Of a stretch of DNA of 64,000 bases, positions 2,574 to 64,000 are shown one piece after another. The stretch spans positions 62,001 to 126,000 of the forward strand of contig NZ_RBLG01000001.1 of assembly GCF_003634585.1 (NCBI RefSeq), given 5' to 3'. The translations under genes were made by a program, and so were the position numbers. Under the pieces are notes generated by a model. It was given only the letters and a program-made list of their open reading frames with translations, did no database searches and was not told the origin of the DNA. Positions within the stretch are counted from its first letter, which is position 1. Each line of letters opens with the position of its first letter. The stretch comes from Gillisia mitskevichiae. Lineage in GTDB: Bacteria > Bacteroidota > Bacteroidia > Flavobacteriales > Flavobacteriaceae.

Positions 2574-3947
2574 TTACAATGAAGGTACTCTTACTGTTTC
2601 TCCAATCCAACATCCTATTCTCACACTTTGACCTTCTTTTCCAGCTTGAAAAATATCAGATTTTTGAGGTGCTCTTCCTTTGTAAGCAGCAACCGTTTGG
2701 TTTGCAACGCTACTTAAAGATGGATCTACACGACCTGCTCTAGAAGCATAATCTGCAGCTAACCAATATACCGCTCTTTTATCAAAAGTTGTTGCTCCAC
2801 AATTGTTTGCGCTTTTTGCGATCATATCTGCAATTTGTAGATATGCTCTACCCGCTGAAGGCTTAGCAGAAAGTGCTTTATTGTAATAAGTTCTAGCCTG
2901 TCCGAAACTACCTTTTCTTTTGTAGTTATCTGCCAACTTCATATAAACTCTAGACTTATCTGAAGGATTTGTTTCCAATTCTGCAGACTCGTTATAGTAT
3001 TTCATTGCTTGCGTAGCATTTCCTTTTGCATCTGCTAATTGTCCTAAATAAAGGGCAGATTTAGCAGAAGGTTCTGCTGTATGTAAAGCTTCAGATAACT
3101 TAAAGAAGATAGGATCTTCTGTACAATCTTTAGCAGATAATCTTCCAGACGCGATCTTTAACCAAGCAACATCTGTTTTTCTTTCAGCAAAATCCTTATT
3201 ATATAAAGGGATTAAGTTATCACAATCTGCTCTCTGTCCTAACTTACCATTAATACTGCTTTTTACAGTACTATAAGCTTTTAAGTTGATCTCAGAATTC
3301 GCAACCAATTGCGCTTCCTTAGCAGATAATTCTTCTCCTGCATCTTGCTTTACTAAAAGTGGCGCAAGGAATTCTGCCATCTTATTTTCTTCTTCTTCAA
3401 CTTTAGATATTACTTGATCGTAGTTTTCAAAAACATCCTCTAATGTTTTAGTTCCTTCATCTTGAAGATCTACTAATAAAGAGAAATAAGCGTATAATGC
3501 TTTAGCACTAGTAAAACTCTCTCTATCAGCCTTAAACGCTGCATCAAAAGCTTCGAACTGCTCTTTTTTAGTTCCTATCCCATTGTCATATTTAAGCATT
3601 GCAATATCGCCTTGTACTTCACCTGCGCTTGTTTTAGCTGGGAAATACTTTAAACGATCGTTCATAAGATCTATAGTTTCTTGAACTAATGCTTTTTTAT
3701 CTGCATCTGTTGCTTTAGACATTTTATCTTTTAAAACACGATCTAAGTATTGAAAAGTTGCCAAACTATAAGTAGGACATTTTTCTTTTACTTCCATTAA
3801 AGGGGCATAAGCCTGATCGTATCTCTTTGCTTTTGCATCATCATAAGCCAACGCTGCTTTTGTAGCACAGTCTACATTAGTTTGAGCCTTAACTAGACCA
3901 GAGCTTAAAAGCACTCCTGATAATAGTAATATAAGTTTAGTTTTCAT
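2574..3947 (-). CDS. secreted TPR-repeat protein
   Basis: The ATG at 3945-3947 gives 457 residues beginning with a clear signal peptide (MKTKLILLLSGVLLSSGLVKAQ). A longer reading from 4001 would run into the upstream gene and prepend a non-signal sequence, so the internal start is preferred. Tetratricopeptide-type helices are visible in the second half (SALYLGQLADAKGNATQAMKYY; YMKLADNYKRKGSFGQARTYY; AYLQIADMIAKSA). Conserved downstream of outer-membrane protein genes in flavobacteria; the function is unknown, with a periplasmic scaffolding role a guess. Confidence 0.8.
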   Translation of the reverse strand: MKTKLILLLSGVLLSSGLVKAQTNVDCATKAALAYDDAKAKRYDQAYAPLMEVKEKCPTYSLATFQYLDRVLKDKMSKATDADKKALVQETIDLMNDRLKYFPAKTSAGEVQGDIAMLKYDNGIGTKKEQFEAFDAAFKADRESFTSAKALYAYFSLLVDLQDEGTKTLEDVFENYDQVISKVEEEENKMAEFLAPLLVKQDAGEELSAKEAQLVANSEINLKAYSTVKSSINGKLGQRADCDNLIPLYNKDFAERKTDVAWLKIASGRLSAKDCTEDPIFFKLSEALHTAEPSAKSALYLGQLADAKGNATQAMKYYNESAELETNPSDKSRVYMKLADNYKRKGSFGQARTYYNKALSAKPSAGRAYLQIADMIAKSANNCGATTFDKRAVYWLAADYASRAGRVDPSLSSVANQTVAAYKGRAPQKSDIFQAGKEGQSVRIGCWIGETVRVPSL

Positions 3948-59466: not shown

Positions 59467-59509
59467 AATTTCTAAGATTATTTTGCTCTTTTAGCCTTGC
59501 AGAAATACT

Positions 59510-59671
59510 GAGATTTCTCGACTCCGCTCGAAATGACATTGTTATTTGTAACCTCCTATTATAGATTGTCATCCCGACGGTAGGAGGGATCTATATTTTA
59601 TAAATTGCCAATAAATCACTTCCCTAGAAGCAAACTTCGACTTCCCGATAGCTATCGGAACAGATTGATAA
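59510..59671. repeat. dispersed repeat stems between MmcQ- and DUF4230-type genes
   Basis: 'GAGATTTCTCGACTCCGCTC' / 'GAAATGACATT', 'TGTCATCCCGACGG' / 'TAGGAGGGATCT' and 'CTTCCCGATAGCTATCGGAA'. These are the same families as elsewhere in the window. Confidence 0.8.
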
Positions 59672-59673
59672 AA

Positions 59674-60288
59674 CTATTTCGAGATCTTCGCGGGCACTTC
59701 TGAAGCTACTTCTAAAGCTGAATAATCTAATTTCCACCCGATGGTTTCTACGATCTTTTCCATTAGAAGAATAGTCCCTAAAGCCTCTTTTTCTGCTTTT
59801 TCAAGCAAGCCGCTTTGAGGGATCTTGTCTACAATATGTTTTTTTGAATCTCTACTAATATCGGTTAGATCTGAGGTAGTAAAAGGATTTGCCCAACCTT
59901 CACGCTTGTCGTAATATTTAAAATCGGTCTCTACCGTTAGCAACTCGGGTTTAGGGAAATTGGTGAGAATGATCTTCTTATTTTCTATATCACTATCCAT
60001 TCGGATTTTACTTAAATCAAAACCCACATGAGCTTTCGCTGTAATAAGAATGATCGCTTTTTTCTTCCCTAAAAGCAAGCTCACGTACTTGTCTTTTAGA
60101 TTTTCATAATGATAGATCTCAGAAAAATCTCCTTCAACAGAAATAAACTTGCAGACACTCTTGATCTTATCCATCAAAATAATAGATTGCTCATCTGACC
60201 TCGATCTATTTTTCTGGCTATTTAGCTTTGAAAATAGAAAATAGGCCAAAATGGCTCCAGCGGCAAGTCCTATAAAAAGATACTCCAT
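59674..60288 (-). CDS. DUF4230 membrane-anchored protein
   Basis: 204 residues, one N-terminal membrane helix (about 3-19), then a DUF4230 domain: 'KFISVEGDFSEIYHYENLKDKYVSLLLGKKKAIILITAKAHVGFDLSKI', 'TNFPKPELLTVETDFKYYDKREGWANPFTTSD'. Function unknown. Downstream of leuS with a 55-base gap, so possibly co-transcribed. Confidence 0.87.
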   Translation of the reverse strand: MEYLFIGLAAGAILAYFLFSKLNSQKNRSRSDEQSIILMDKIKSVCKFISVEGDFSEIYHYENLKDKYVSLLLGKKKAIILITAKAHVGFDLSKIRMDSDIENKKIILTNFPKPELLTVETDFKYYDKREGWANPFTTSDLTDISRDSKKHIVDKIPQSGLLEKAEKEALGTILLMEKIVETIGWKLDYSALEVASEVPAKISK

Positions 60289-60343
60289 ATTTCAAATATA
60301 ACTAAAAGCCATTTATAATTTAAAGCTTACAGAAAACTACAAT

Positions 60344-63300
60344 CTAACCAACAATGTTCACGATCTTCCCCGGAACAACGATTACCTTCTTAGGAGCTCT
60401 TCCATCTAATTGTTTCAGGGTGCGCTCATCTGCCATAACCGCTTTTTCAATTTCATCTTTCCCAAGTTCTAGAGGTAACTCCATAATAAACCTCATTTTT
60501 CCGTTGAAAGAAATAGGATAATCCTTGGTGCTTTCTACTACATATTTTTCCTCAAAAACAGGATATTCTGCTGTAGTAATAGAGGAATCGTGACCCAATT
60601 TACTCCAAAGCTCTTCCGCAATATGTGGAGCATAAGGTGCAATTAATATTGCCAAAGGTTCTAACACCTCGCGCTGATCGCATTTTTGAGCAGTTAACTC
60701 ATTCACACAGATCATAAATGTGGATACTGAAGTATTAAAACTGAATTCTTCTATATCTTCAGTTACCTTTTTAATGGTTTTATGCAAAGTTTTCAAAGAA
60801 TCGGCTGAAGCTTTTTCCTCTGAAACAGCAAACACCTCATCGTTATGGTATAACTTCCACATTTTCTTCAAGAAATTATGAACCCCAGTAATTCCGGCTG
60901 TATTCCAAGGTTTAGCTTGCTCTAATGGTCCCAAGAACATCTCGTACATACGCAAAGTATCTGCGCCATACTGAGAACAGATCTCGTCTGGACTTACCAC
61001 ATTGTATTTGGACTTAGACATTTTTTCCACTTCTCTGCCAACAATATACTTTTCGTTCTCTAGTATGAATTTAGCATCTGCAAACTCCGGTCTCCAATTT
61101 TTGAAAGCCTCTATATCTAATTCATCTGATGAATTTATCATAGCCACATCTGCATGAATAGGTTGTACAGATCTACCTTCTATTAATCCTTTAGAAATAA
61201 AGGTGTTCTCTCCTTCAATTCTATAAACCATTGCGCTCATTCCAAGGATCATCCCTTGGTTGATGAGTTTTTTGAAAGGTTCTTTTACCGTCACCATTCC
61301 GCGATCGTATAAGAATTTCGTCCAAAATCTGGAATATAATAAGTGACCGGTAGCATGTTCACTTCCACCAATATATAGATCTACATTTTCCCAGTATTTC
61401 TGAGCTACTTCTGAAGCAAATCTCTCCTCATTATCGGCATCCATATATCTAAAGAAATACCATGAACTCCCTGCCCAACCCGGCATTGTGTTTAATTCTA
61501 AAGGATAAATATTCTTAGAAGCATCTAACAATTCATTAGAAACAATCTCATTTTTATTTGAATCCCACGCCCAAGTTGTAGCGCGACCTAATGGCGGCTC
61601 CCCTTCTTCGGTTGGAAGATATTTTTCTACTTCTGGTAGCTTTAGTGGCAAATGTTCCTCTGCTATCATTTGTGGTAAACCATTAACATAATATACAGGA
61701 AATGGCTCTCCCCAATAACGCTGTCTGGAAAATACTGCATCACGTAATCTATAATTGATCTTTCCTTTTCCCGCATTAACTGCTTCCAGGGCATCTATTG
61801 CTTTTTGCGTTGCTTCCTTATAGCTTAATCCACTTAGGAAATCACTATTCGCGATCTTAGTTCCATCTTTCTCTGCGTATGCCTCATCAGAAATATCTAT
61901 TCCCTCAAAAATATTAGGGATAGGCAAACTAAAATGTTTTGCGAAATCGTAATCCCGCTGATCTCCACAAGGAACCGACATTACTGCTCCTGTTCCATAA
62001 CCTGCCAACACGTAATCCCCGATCCAAACAGGGATTTTCTCGCCACTTAAAGGATGAATTGCATAAGCGCCCGTAAATACTCCGGAAATGGTCTTTACAT
62101 CTGCCATTCGCTCACGCTCACTTCGCTTAGCCGATTTTTCTATGTATGCTGAAACTGCTTCTTTTTGTTCTGAAGAAGTTATTTCCTGAACCAATTCATG
62201 CTCTGGTGCCAGCGTCATAAAGCTAACTCCAAAAATGGTGTCTGGACGCGTAGTGAAAACATCTATCCCCCTAACCCCCTGAGGGGAAACTTGGTAATTG
62301 GATAATTCATTCTCTATTTGTTTTAAAACAGAATCAATATTTCCTATTACTTCTTCATTTTTAAAACGAATAACTTTAAATCCAAGATCATTTAAAATCC
62401 TAGACCTTTCCATATCCTTCTCTTCTTGAGAAAGATGAATCCCACCATCTACTTCTACCACAAGTTTTTTTGATAAGCAAACGAAGTCGACTATGAAATC
62501 TGCGATTAAATGTTGTTGTCTAAATTTTGACCCTAATTTCTTAGTTTTTAATTGCTGCCAAAGTATTTTTTCCGCATCTGTCGGATTATCTCTCATTTTC
62601 TTCGCTTTTTCAAGCAACAAATGAGAGTTATTTCCACCAGTCATATAACCGGGTTTTGAGTTTCCTTTCCCTTCGGGGAAGGTTAGGATGGGGAACTTAA
62701 CTAGCGCTCCTTTAGATCTTCCAATCCAATTGGTTTGCGAATCCTTAAGGGGCTGTGGCCAATCTAAAGCTTCAGAATCGTCTAATAAGCGTTGAGCATA
62801 TGCAGAAATACGCATGCTCCATTGCGTCATCTTTTTTCGAACTACCGTAAATCCTCCACGTTCAGATACTCCATTTACAATTTCGTCATTTGCCAACACG
62901 GTACCTAATTCCGGGCACCAGTTAACTTCGGTTTCAGCTAAATAGGTAAGTCTGTATTTTAAAAGAATTTGTTGTTTTTCTTCAGAAGAAAAGGCGTTCC
63001 ATTCATCTGCAGAAAAGAATTCTACCTCATCATCACAAACAGCATTAACATTAGTATTTCCTTCCGAAGAAAAAAGGAGTTCTAAGTCTGATATTGCTCG
63101 AGCTTTATCTTCAGTTTTATCATACCAAGAATCAAAAAGTTGAATAAAGATCCATTGTGTCCAACGGTAATAATCTGGTTCGCTGGTTCGTACTTCCCTG
63201 CTCCAATCGAATGAAAAACCAATTTGATCCAGTTGTTGGCGGTATCTTTTAATATTATCCTCGGTAGTGATAGCCGGGTGTTGCCCAGTTTGAATAGCAT

Positions 63301-63562
63301 ATTGCTCTGCAGGCAAACCAAAACTATCATATCCTTGTGGATGCAATACATTAAAACCTTTATGGCGTTTGAATCTTGCATAAATATCACTGGCGATATA
63401 TCCTAGAGGGTGCCCAACGTGTAATCCTGCTCCAGACGGGTAAGGAAACATATCCAACACATAGAATTTTGGCAGATCACTTTTATTTTTCGCTTTAAAA
63501 GTTTGGTTCTCTGCCCAATATTTTTGCCACTTGGCTTCAATCTCATTAAAATGGTAACTCAT
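60344..63562 (-). CDS. leuS: leucyl-tRNA synthetase with an in-frame DUF559 nuclease-domain insertion
   Basis: 1072 residues versus about 930 usual for the family. Class I motifs are intact: HVGH at 48-51, KMSKS at 847-851, anticodon-binding and C-terminal domains. The CP1 editing domain starts at 'NWIGRSKGALVKF' and resumes with 'IDVFTTRPDTIFG' (433-445). Between them, residues about 291-432 are foreign: flank 'LTFPEGKGNSKPGYMTGG', a DUF559 (Vsr-like) domain ('NPTDAEKILWQQLKTKKLG', 'ADFIVDFVC' Asp359, 'VVEVDGG' Glu370 and Asp372, 'FKVIRFKNEEVIG'), and flank 'SPQGVRG'. Without it the protein has about 930 residues. The frame is open throughout, so a chimeric enzyme is probably made unless the insertion is spliced at protein level, for which there is no sign. 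Confidence 0.95.
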   Translation of the reverse strand: MSYHFNEIEAKWQKYWAENQTFKAKNKSDLPKFYVLDMFPYPSGAGLHVGHPLGYIASDIYARFKRHKGFNVLHPQGYDSFGLPAEQYAIQTGQHPAITTEDNIKRYRQQLDQIGFSFDWSREVRTSEPDYYRWTQWIFIQLFDSWYDKTEDKARAISDLELLFSSEGNTNVNAVCDDEVEFFSADEWNAFSSEEKQQILLKYRLTYLAETEVNWCPELGTVLANDEIVNGVSERGGFTVVRKKMTQWSMRISAYAQRLLDDSEALDWPQPLKDSQTNWIGRSKGALVKFPILTFPEGKGNSKPGYMTGGNNSHLLLEKAKKMRDNPTDAEKILWQQLKTKKLGSKFRQQHLIADFIVDFVCLSKKLVVEVDGGIHLSQEEKDMERSRILNDLGFKVIRFKNEEVIGNIDSVLKQIENELSNYQVSPQGVRGIDVFTTRPDTIFGVSFMTLAPEHELVQEITSSEQKEAVSAYIEKSAKRSERERMADVKTISGVFTGAYAIHPLSGEKIPVWIGDYVLAGYGTGAVMSVPCGDQRDYDFAKHFSLPIPNIFEGIDISDEAYAEKDGTKIANSDFLSGLSYKEATQKAIDALEAVNAGKGKINYRLRDAVFSRQRYWGEPFPVYYVNGLPQMIAEEHLPLKLPEVEKYLPTEEGEPPLGRATTWAWDSNKNEIVSNELLDASKNIYPLELNTMPGWAGSSWYFFRYMDADNEERFASEVAQKYWENVDLYIGGSEHATGHLLYSRFWTKFLYDRGMVTVKEPFKKLINQGMILGMSAMVYRIEGENTFISKGLIEGRSVQPIHADVAMINSSDELDIEAFKNWRPEFADAKFILENEKYIVGREVEKMSKSKYNVVSPDEICSQYGADTLRMYEMFLGPLEQAKPWNTAGITGVHNFLKKMWKLYHNDEVFAVSEEKASADSLKTLHKTIKKVTEDIEEFSFNTSVSTFMICVNELTAQKCDQREVLEPLAILIAPYAPHIAEELWSKLGHDSSITTAEYPVFEEKYVVESTKDYPISFNGKMRFIMELPLELGKDEIEKAVMADERTLKQLDGRAPKKVIVVPGKIVNIVG
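62267..62693 (-). mobile_element. DUF559 cassette inserted in leuS
   Basis: About 427 bases inside leuS, bounded by GC-rich ends: CCCCCTAACCCCCTGAGGGG at 62267-62286 and GGTTAGGATGGGG preceded by CTTTCCCTTCGGGGAA at 62664-62693. The outer bases are imperfectly inverted (CCCC-CTAACC against CCCCATCCTAACC) and each end can form its own small hairpin. Such ends are seen around free-standing DUF559 ORFs in Bacteroidota. Mobility is inferred; no target-site duplication is evident. Confidence 0.6.
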
Positions 63563-63608
63563 CCTATATATTTTCTGATTACGCAGTAATATTTAACTGT
63601 AATGCGCG

Positions 63609-63616
63609 CAAATTTA
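63609..63616 (-). promoter_or_regulatory. -7 promoter element of leuS
   Basis: TAAATTTG on the minus strand, 46 bases before the leuS ATG at 63560-63562. No clear -33 element. Confidence 0.45.
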
Positions 63617-63645
63617 CAATTTTAAACTTCTTTATAAGTCCTATT

Positions 63646-64000
63646 TTATATAGATTCTGCCAGCATTCTTGCTTGCTTTTCCATTGGCAGCAAACATTCG
63701 TAGATAAATTGATTCACTGGAGTTGGAACGCCAAGTCGATTTCCTTCCTTCACGATATATCCATTAAAATTATCCAATTCTGATGGTTTTCCTTCCATAA
63801 TATCGCGTTGTGTAGAGGCAGTTGTCTTTGAGTCTAGCTTATTTATTACCTCAAAAGCAGCTTTTATGTGTTCATCATTTAAAGCAATTCCTTTGGCATT
63901 GGCTACCATTTTAATTTCTTCGGCAGTCTTCCTCATAAGATCCATCAAATATTCGCTTTCTCTCATTTTCCCAAGATTAACCCGAGTAAGTCCGCCTAAA
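63646..64000 (-). CDS. ketopantoate reductase-like protein, C-terminal part
   Basis: The frame is open to the window edge, so only the last 117 codons are seen. They carry the C-terminal ApbA/PanE helical domain: 'GGLTRVNLGKMRESEYLMDLMRKTAEEIKMVANAKGIAL', 'STQRDIMEGKPSELDNFNGYIVKEGNRLGVPTPVNQFIYECL'. The Ser/Asp of 'GKPSELDNFNG' is the family's substrate-binding motif. Substrate may be 2-dehydropantoate or a related 2-oxo acid; the N-terminal Rossmann domain is outside the window. Confidence 0.85.
   Translation of the reverse strand, partial: LGGLTRVNLGKMRESEYLMDLMRKTAEEIKMVANAKGIALNDEHIKAAFEVINKLDSKTTASTQRDIMEGKPSELDNFNGYIVKEGNRLGVPTPVNQFIYECLLPMEKQARMLAESI

Follow-up and report, generated by a model that had tools for sequence, protein, structure and literature searches.

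In Gillisia mitskevichiae (Bacteroidota, Flavobacteriaceae), the leuS gene for leucyl-tRNA synthetase (LeuRS) contains an additional in-frame segment that encodes a nuclease domain of the DUF559 family. The gene lies in a stretch of 64,000 nucleotides (the window; NCBI RefSeq assembly GCF_003634585.1, contig NZ_RBLG01000001.1, positions 62,001 to 126,000 of the forward strand), whose numbering is used here. The segment is probably a compact selfish nuclease element that is maintained as an extra translated domain of the synthetase and has spread by repair events provoked by the nuclease itself.

A nuclease domain within leucyl-tRNA synthetase

The leuS frame runs through 1072 codons without an internal stop. 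In the Pfam matches, the DUF559 domain follows the first part of the catalytic domain and precedes the editing domain, whose match begins at residue 431; further LeuRS domains are recovered as well, in agreement with an earlier note on this sequence in which the synthetase parts on both sides were considered intact. The same note had described an extra segment at residues 291-432 with the three catalytic residues of a Vsr-type nuclease, and both its extent and its residue numbering have held up (Table 1). Compared with LeuRS of a congener that lacks the segment (G111; G and L numbers designate genomes and loci), a loop of 8 residues, KEQSTGAD, is exchanged for 142 residues, a net gain of about 134. 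The landing loop adjoins the peptide VFTTRPDT, invariant in 24 of 24 aligned LeuRS, a position to be expected if the nuclease targets conserved DNA.

Table 1. Features of leuS and of the element it contains (window coordinates)
Feature	Position	Strand	Basis
leuS, leucyl-tRNA synthetase with inserted nuclease domain, 1072 aa	60344..63562	-	TIGR00396 leuS_bact E 2.1e-272
Inserted element, residues 291-432, 426 bp, in frame; exact DNA borders not fixed because empty loops vary	62267..62692	-	comparison with empty congeners
DUF559 nuclease domain, residues 318-420	62303..62611	-	PF04480 E 9.5e-35; AlphaFold2; Foldseek
Catalytic residues Asp359, Glu370, Asp372 (D-x10-E-x-D)	62447..62488	-	domain alignment and coordinate check
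Element 5' end: two pyrimidine arms and hairpin (TTCCCC..TTCCCC-GAA-GGGAAA); degenerate triplex-motif layout with a long linker	62661..62695	-	sequence; relatives
Element 3' end: C-arm, TCA loop, G-arm, TTA linker, second G-arm; triplex-motif layout	62266..62290	-	sequence
Left host flank NWIGRSKGALVKF	62693..62731	-	LeuRS alignment
Right host flank IDVFTTRPDT	62237..62266	-	LeuRS alignment

The host genome is 99.97 % complete and contains a single full-length LeuRS match, three other matches being short and weak; the protein that bears the insert should thus be the working enzyme of the cell. It is also the sole DUF559 match in this genome at E <= 0.001, and a genome-wide search for its end pattern with up to two mismatches found one place, the 3' end of the insert itself. 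The possibility of an assembly chimera, raised at the outset, is unlikely because the same kind of insert occupies the same place in other genomes, for example in the LeuRS record of the nearest named relative, Gillisia marina, which is 88 % identical over the segment.

A location in an essential gene would suit an intron or an intein, i.e., a segment removed from the RNA or from the protein. However, Rfam searches up to an E value of 1 gave no match in positions 59500-64000, hence no catalytic RNA of a group I or group II intron, and the Pfam matches of the window LeuRS at E <= 0.001 include neither a Hint splicing domain nor any other intein family. In addition, among the 94 related loci described below the frame stays open across the element in the 50 that are nested within a host gene, a property which RNA splicing would not need, even if this class is itself defined by its open frame. 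Removal of the segment is therefore extremely improbable. Since the frame is free of stops from end to end and no splicing device was found, LeuRS should carry the translated element as an additional domain on its surface.

A model of full-length LeuRS was too poor (mean pLDDT 57) for placing the insert on the enzyme, and the domain model alone was used. The Met of GYMTGG, considered as an internal start from which a free nuclease might be made, was discarded because it is Leu or Arg in some relatives and hence not conserved.

The AlphaFold2 model of the domain itself has a mean pLDDT of 89.5. With this model, Foldseek retrieves the structure 3hrl (E 2e-7), the homing endonuclease I-Bth0305I (3r3p; E 1e-4 and 3.5e-4) and, weakly, Vsr (E 0.098), while a sequence profile search retrieves 3hrl at E 1.5e-35 and an I-Bth0305I chain of 3r3p at E 2e-6. 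The domain is thus homologous to a known homing endonuclease and, by its Pfam match and its D-x10-E-x-D pattern, belongs to the DUF559/Vsr-type PD-(D/E)XK nucleases. The pattern is present in 89 of 91 DUF559 domains (three of the 94 loci having been dropped beforehand) and in all 16 strong-match LeuRS residents, a set that does not comprise the decayed leuS copies. In Caulobacter, the DUF559 protein VsrA is responsible for a DNA-damage response that arises when a cytosine methyltransferase is missing (PMC12907096).

Empty, filled and decayed alleles

In the genus of the window, a LeuRS match at E <= 1e-60 was obtained for 14 of 16 genomes and none for the other two. The loop is readable in 12 of these genomes and is filled in six of them (G000, G153, G151, G154, G156, G152) and empty in the other six (G160, G162, G111, G150, G149, G158); in G157 and G159, which are outside this count, LeuRS was matched and the loop was unreadable. 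The empty LeuRS of G160 is 90 % identical to that of the window over residues 432-1072, in an assembly that is 66 % complete and with a stop in the match, and the empty gene of G158 is in pieces in its assembly. The alignment with close relatives that had been proposed as a check thus reveals empty sites within the genus, and because of these sites the segment is not a part of the normal CP1 domain that all relatives would share.

In the family as a whole, counting weak matches, DUF559 is found at E <= 0.001 in 72 of 149 drawn genomes. The leuS residents identified in this draw are 11 copies with GC-rich ends, that of the window among them, and two decayed copies (G113 and G002) in which Asp372 and the GC-rich ends are lost while leuS remains in frame. 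Among the matches listed, named records with the insert come from Gillisia marina, Cellulophaga baltica, Marixanthotalea marina and Maribacter halichondriae, and those of Tenacibaculum sp. AHE14PA and Polaribacter sp. IC066 have lost the ends, with Asp372 replaced and an open frame through the site.

The nucleases at the leuS loop of the genus fall into two lineages, and the window gene (lineage A) and its sister G154 (lineage B; support 97/95) carry different ones. In G151 an A-like body is found under a B-like 5' end, so that its insert looks like a recombinant. When lineages A, B and C, decayed and empty, assigned by us from the domain tree and the alignments, are mapped as states on a host tree (24 chosen LeuRS, insert excluded), they require 9 changes (the minimum is 4 and the mean after shuffling 11.0, with 12 of 200 shuffles as low). 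Lineage A taken alone requires 9 changes versus 8.3 after shuffling, i.e., it does not cluster with the host phylogeny at all.

The same LeuRS loop is filled in frame by a different palindromic repeat, CCCTGAGCGCAGTCGAAGGG, at two loci of genome G061 (L046 and L055), and it therefore seems to be a general landing place. Short AATTC-type repeats occur in the empty leuS loops of L047, L139, L137 and L134 (G006, G150, G149 and G158). Other in-frame inserts (KQVQHD...VTPSGVE and RHSELDSESH-like) are seen in a second LeuRS loop, before YPLELNTMPGWAGSSWY at about columns 775-812 of alignment A1, and L115 and L116 have a DUF559 element within this second region.

Selection and probable spread between species

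In each of 10 species pairs tested, the insert has a smaller proportion of synonymous differences than its host gene, and in 8 of them its value lies below that of every host window of the same size. Bootstrap values are 0.024 or less in 7 of the 10 pairs. Scaling for the saturation expected from codon usage leaves the insert lower in 11 of 12 pairs, by a narrow margin in two of these; only G000-G050 does not follow. In the strongest pair, G154-G156, synonymous codon differences amount to 19 of 117 in the insert and 303 of 793 in the host. This lower synonymous difference points to spread of the insert between species. Together with the interleaved alleles it fits a mobile cassette translated inside an essential gene, as had been suspected from the window alone, and it provides indirect indications of what is expected of a homing endonuclease, namely filled and empty alleles and spread between lineages.

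For 9 of 11 pairs, the ratio of nonsynonymous to synonymous change (dN/dS, by a simple counting method) is 0.15-0.35 in the insert and 0.05-0.09 in the host. One of the other two pairs is saturated, so that its ratio is undefined, and the decayed pair G113-G002 gives 0.26 versus 0.14. Judged from these ratios, the insert is under purifying selection. Such constraint, like the catalytic residues retained in all the strong-match LeuRS residents, would also be expected if the nuclease were a domesticated domain, kept for a useful function in LeuRS or in each of its hosts. However, the presence of the insert is patchy, with turnover within a single genus, related domains reside in unrelated host proteins, and four leuS copies (G113, G002, the Tenacibaculum and the Polaribacter) do without Asp372 and the GC-rich ends while their frame stays open. 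Domestication is accordingly very unlikely, and a new nucleic-acid function for LeuRS, which the earlier note had considered, finds no support.

Related nucleases in other genes

By our count, 27 of the 83 matches of the family draw with E <= 1e-20 lie within an open frame of at least 300 aa. The 94 loci chosen for analysis, a choice biased towards strong matches and long frames and made after leaving out three additional loci (L075, L078 and L079) since no DUF559 motif was found in them, comprise 50 nested (more than 40 aa of host on both sides), 6 N-terminal, 2 C-terminal and 36 stand-alone copies. When the stand-alone copies were examined for a position within a gene in another frame or antisense, 3 had some frame open across the element, never with over 40 aa on each side; no search for gene-breaking elements was made. 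Pfam analysis of 16 further carriers identified as hosts the second site of LeuRS, MetH, RecG, a MeaB/methylmalonyl-CoA mutase fusion, a UvrD-type helicase, HsdR, HsdM and other restriction-modification proteins, HemD, HisD and a protein with a glutamine-amidotransferase domain. In the MetH of G047 (L021), the frame starts with the peptide NNFVPPLGARGLKLSG, which looks like a lone element end read in frame.

The nucleases group by host gene. On a tree of 92 of the 94 domains (108 columns; two domains were left out beforehand), host-gene labels require 17 changes compared with 52.2 after shuffling, and the residents of RecG, HemD and HsdM each form one clade. One clade of 40 (support 98) unites the residents of LeuRS, MetH, RecG, the mutase and the helicase and also includes three copies labelled as alone, of which two are the C-terminal fusions. 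Clustering by insertion site is the behaviour of intein and homing-endonuclease alleles.

Element ends and copies without a nuclease

At its clearest, the end of an element consists of an outer arm, a short linker, an inner arm, a loop and the complement of the inner arm, and the two ends of an element are inverted. A pyrimidine hairpin is present at 114 of 188 ends, which corresponds to 72 of 94 elements, 42 of them with both ends. At these ends the outer arm resembles a mirror image of the inner one, with a mean score of 4.73 versus 3.77 when arms are swapped between the 114 ends (sd 0.07; maximum of 200 swaps 4.01). Reading the outer arm as a direct repeat was weaker (4.11 versus 3.72) and was given up.

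This layout is shared with the intrastrand triplex motif (TM/PIT) repeats of E. coli. As described by Holder et al. (2015, PMC4666352), these repeats have a C-arm, a loop, a G-arm, a short linker such as TTA or CCG and a second G-arm, and occur in inverted pairs; a TTA second loop, as at the 3' end of the window element, is on record there. The 3' end of the window element fits the TM layout, and so do the element ends as a group, even though most single ends depart from it in the strict sense. The same paper reports triplex folding in vitro for the E. coli motif and finds a stable triplex in the cell unsupported (PMC4666352); the ends described here may likewise be able to fold into a triplex. 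Motif tests were adopted after a plain inverted-repeat score. The strict motif in the expected orientation occurs 1.65 times per strand-kb in the end zones versus 0.019 in the surrounding DNA (10 in 519 strand-kb), and a loose motif lies within 700 bp of 61 of 94 elements versus 3 of 61 background windows.

Ends can persist without a nuclease between them. A UvrD-type gene was matched in all 41 genomes of another genus, its loop being read as protein in 30 loci and as DNA in 16. Two of the 30 contain a nuclease copy (G323 and G552), and six contain a mini-element, i.e., paired inverted ends with a short linker, in frame and without nuclease (G558, G551, G574, G573, G578 and G571, the last with an interrupted 3' hairpin); the others are empty or hold other sequence. 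The gene of G323 is open throughout its 1316 aa, that of G552 breaks into two frames of 856 and 613 aa close to where the insert ends, and those of G558 and G574 have one stop each elsewhere in the match. In G586 (L171), the UvrD-type loop used by triplex-ended elements holds a third kind of repeat, the inverted pair AGAGTTAAGAGT/AACTCTTAACTC, in frame.

Paired inverted ends, copies that have kept them after losing the nuclease, and insertion into many unrelated genes are what one would see if the element were transposon-like, resembling REPINs, with a nuclease that acts on the structured ends and excises and inserts them at many sites by single-strand or hairpin chemistry. Locus-specific lineages would then be old vertical insertions with occasional gene transfer. 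The abundance and arrangement of the ends speak for such a process: a single genome may contain up to 104 end motifs, all 15 pairs of neighbouring motifs less than 250 bp apart in G575 (of 53 motifs) are convergent, and over the 41 genomes motif and nuclease-match counts correlate (rho 0.57, p 9e-5, relatedness uncorrected), with a median of 15.5 motifs in the 30 genomes with a nuclease versus 6 in the 11 without (p 0.018). The first three genomes with listed motif positions contain 8 nuclease loci, of which four have motifs within 400 bp on both sides, one on one side and three on neither. On the other hand, G573, despite its 69 motifs, lacks any nuclease match at E <= 1e-10, nuclease sequences group by host gene, insertion into the same loop recurs across genera, and the synonymous difference of the insert is below that of the host at the same site. 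Transposition of this kind is thus unlikely, though far less so than removal by splicing or domestication.

E. coli ycjD and relatives in a plasmid collection

The association of nuclease and motif may extend to other phyla. A plasmid collection yielded 37 records with a relative. Of 8 examined, all but one have a loose motif at a distance of up to about 1 kb from the nuclease; two of these 7 represent the same E. coli locus, and the count comes without a background rate for the genomes. In E. coli K-12 MG1655, the relative ycjD (NCBIfam PRK09767, E 7.8e-81) lies between sapF and fabI, with an exact TM consensus motif on one side only, in the gap between ycjD and fabI. Two E. coli genomes without ycjD at this place have instead a three-gene efflux block upstream of fabI. 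In one E. coli strain (L195) an inverted pair of triplex motifs resembling a mini-element follows ycjD (positions 2837-2871 and 3043-3077); K-12 has a single motif.

How the element might spread

A spreading mechanism that would account for these observations involves a single DUF559/Vsr-fold nuclease gene between inverted G/C-rich ends in the triplex-motif layout. In leuS the element would have landed in a permissive loop at the start of the editing domain and be translated, without splicing, as an extra surface domain of a functional LeuRS. Since this would keep the host alive, splicing would be unneeded. Either leuS alleles without the element or the element's own structured ends would be cut or nicked by the nuclease, and a filled copy would then serve as template for the repair and so install the element, as with a homing endonuclease. 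Selection would spare only in-frame copies in loops, and copies that lose the nuclease and keep both ends would persist as mini-elements.

A number of points weigh against this proposal. Cleavage and movement are inferences from sequence comparison, and a role in mismatch repair has been proposed instead for a DUF559 protein, VsrA (PMC12907096). Bootstrap values for the synonymous difference are not clear in three of the 10 pairs (0.054, 0.234 and 0.266), and the lower difference is partly compositional (GC content at third codon positions 0.286 versus 0.351). A clear co-conversion tract was sought in the flanks of the insert and not seen, the flanks of most pairs not being consistently below the host average. 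The nuclease tree has few columns, with 44 of its 88 inner branches unresolved, and clustering by locus could be explained by vertical descent with many losses and whole-gene transfer. As to the ends, the strict motif is present at only 32 of 94 5' ends and 27 of 94 3' ends (18 of 94 at both), 11 of the 5' zones and 15 of the 3' zones hold motifs of the unexpected orientation, and a plain terminal-inverted-repeat score exceeds z of 4 in only 40 of 94 loci, the window scoring 2.0 and its degenerate 5' end conforming only in part to the TM layout. Finally, no target-site duplication was recognised in the G323/G550 comparison or in leuS, where the loops differ even between empty congeners.

More tentatively, and with somewhat less than even confidence, these elements may represent a new class of mobile element with a Vsr-fold nuclease, triplex ends and nuclease-less mini-copies, of which one clade has become a permanent in-frame domain in essential enzymes such as LeuRS. 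In a search of the open-access literature, no paper connecting DUF559 with LeuRS or with ends of this kind came up, which is not proof of absence.

Comparison with known systems

The closest parallel is offered by homing endonucleases, which in general occupy one site with empty and filled alleles, as observed at the leuS loop. I-Bth0305I (PDB 3r3p), of the EDxHD (Vsr-fold) family, shares its nuclease fold with the leuS insert by profile and by structure. It was deposited as a mobile intron protein, whereas the leuS insert has no detectable intron or intein, is fused to its host and has structured inverted ends. RAYT/REP (REPIN) systems resemble the leuS-type element in having a single small nuclease gene, hairpin ends and nuclease-less copies with paired ends. 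However, they use a Y1 (HUH) transposase, of which Pfam found none at E <= 0.001 in 17 carrier proteins, the nuclease being of the PD-(D/E)XK type. Rickettsia palindromic elements, too, insert a palindromic repeat in frame into working protein genes and are not known to contain a nuclease; the leuS-type element shares the in-frame palindromic insert and differs in bringing a nuclease along.

Among relatives by domain family, 3hrl, E. coli YcjD and Caulobacter VsrA, the last proposed to act in mismatch repair (PMC12907096), are free-standing, whereas the leuS domain is embedded in its host. The TM/PIT repeats of E. coli MG1655 are described as intergenic and, according to Holder et al., were never seen with "activities that provide genetic mobility" nearby (PMC4666352), whereas here the layout forms the ends of nuclease elements inside coding genes. 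These repeats have so far been without a known mover, and the nuclease that they flank is a concrete candidate, ycjD in the case of E. coli K-12. From the in-frame copies it seems that a complete selfish nuclease domain can reside in an essential synthetase with no need for splicing, which would be a third way, besides introns and inteins, to hide a nuclease gene in an essential gene. Annotations of a DUF559 domain in LeuRS, MetH or RecG would then mark parasites rather than enzyme functions. By analogy, the element would work like a homing endonuclease gene outside any intron or intein, or like a REPIN served by another enzyme.

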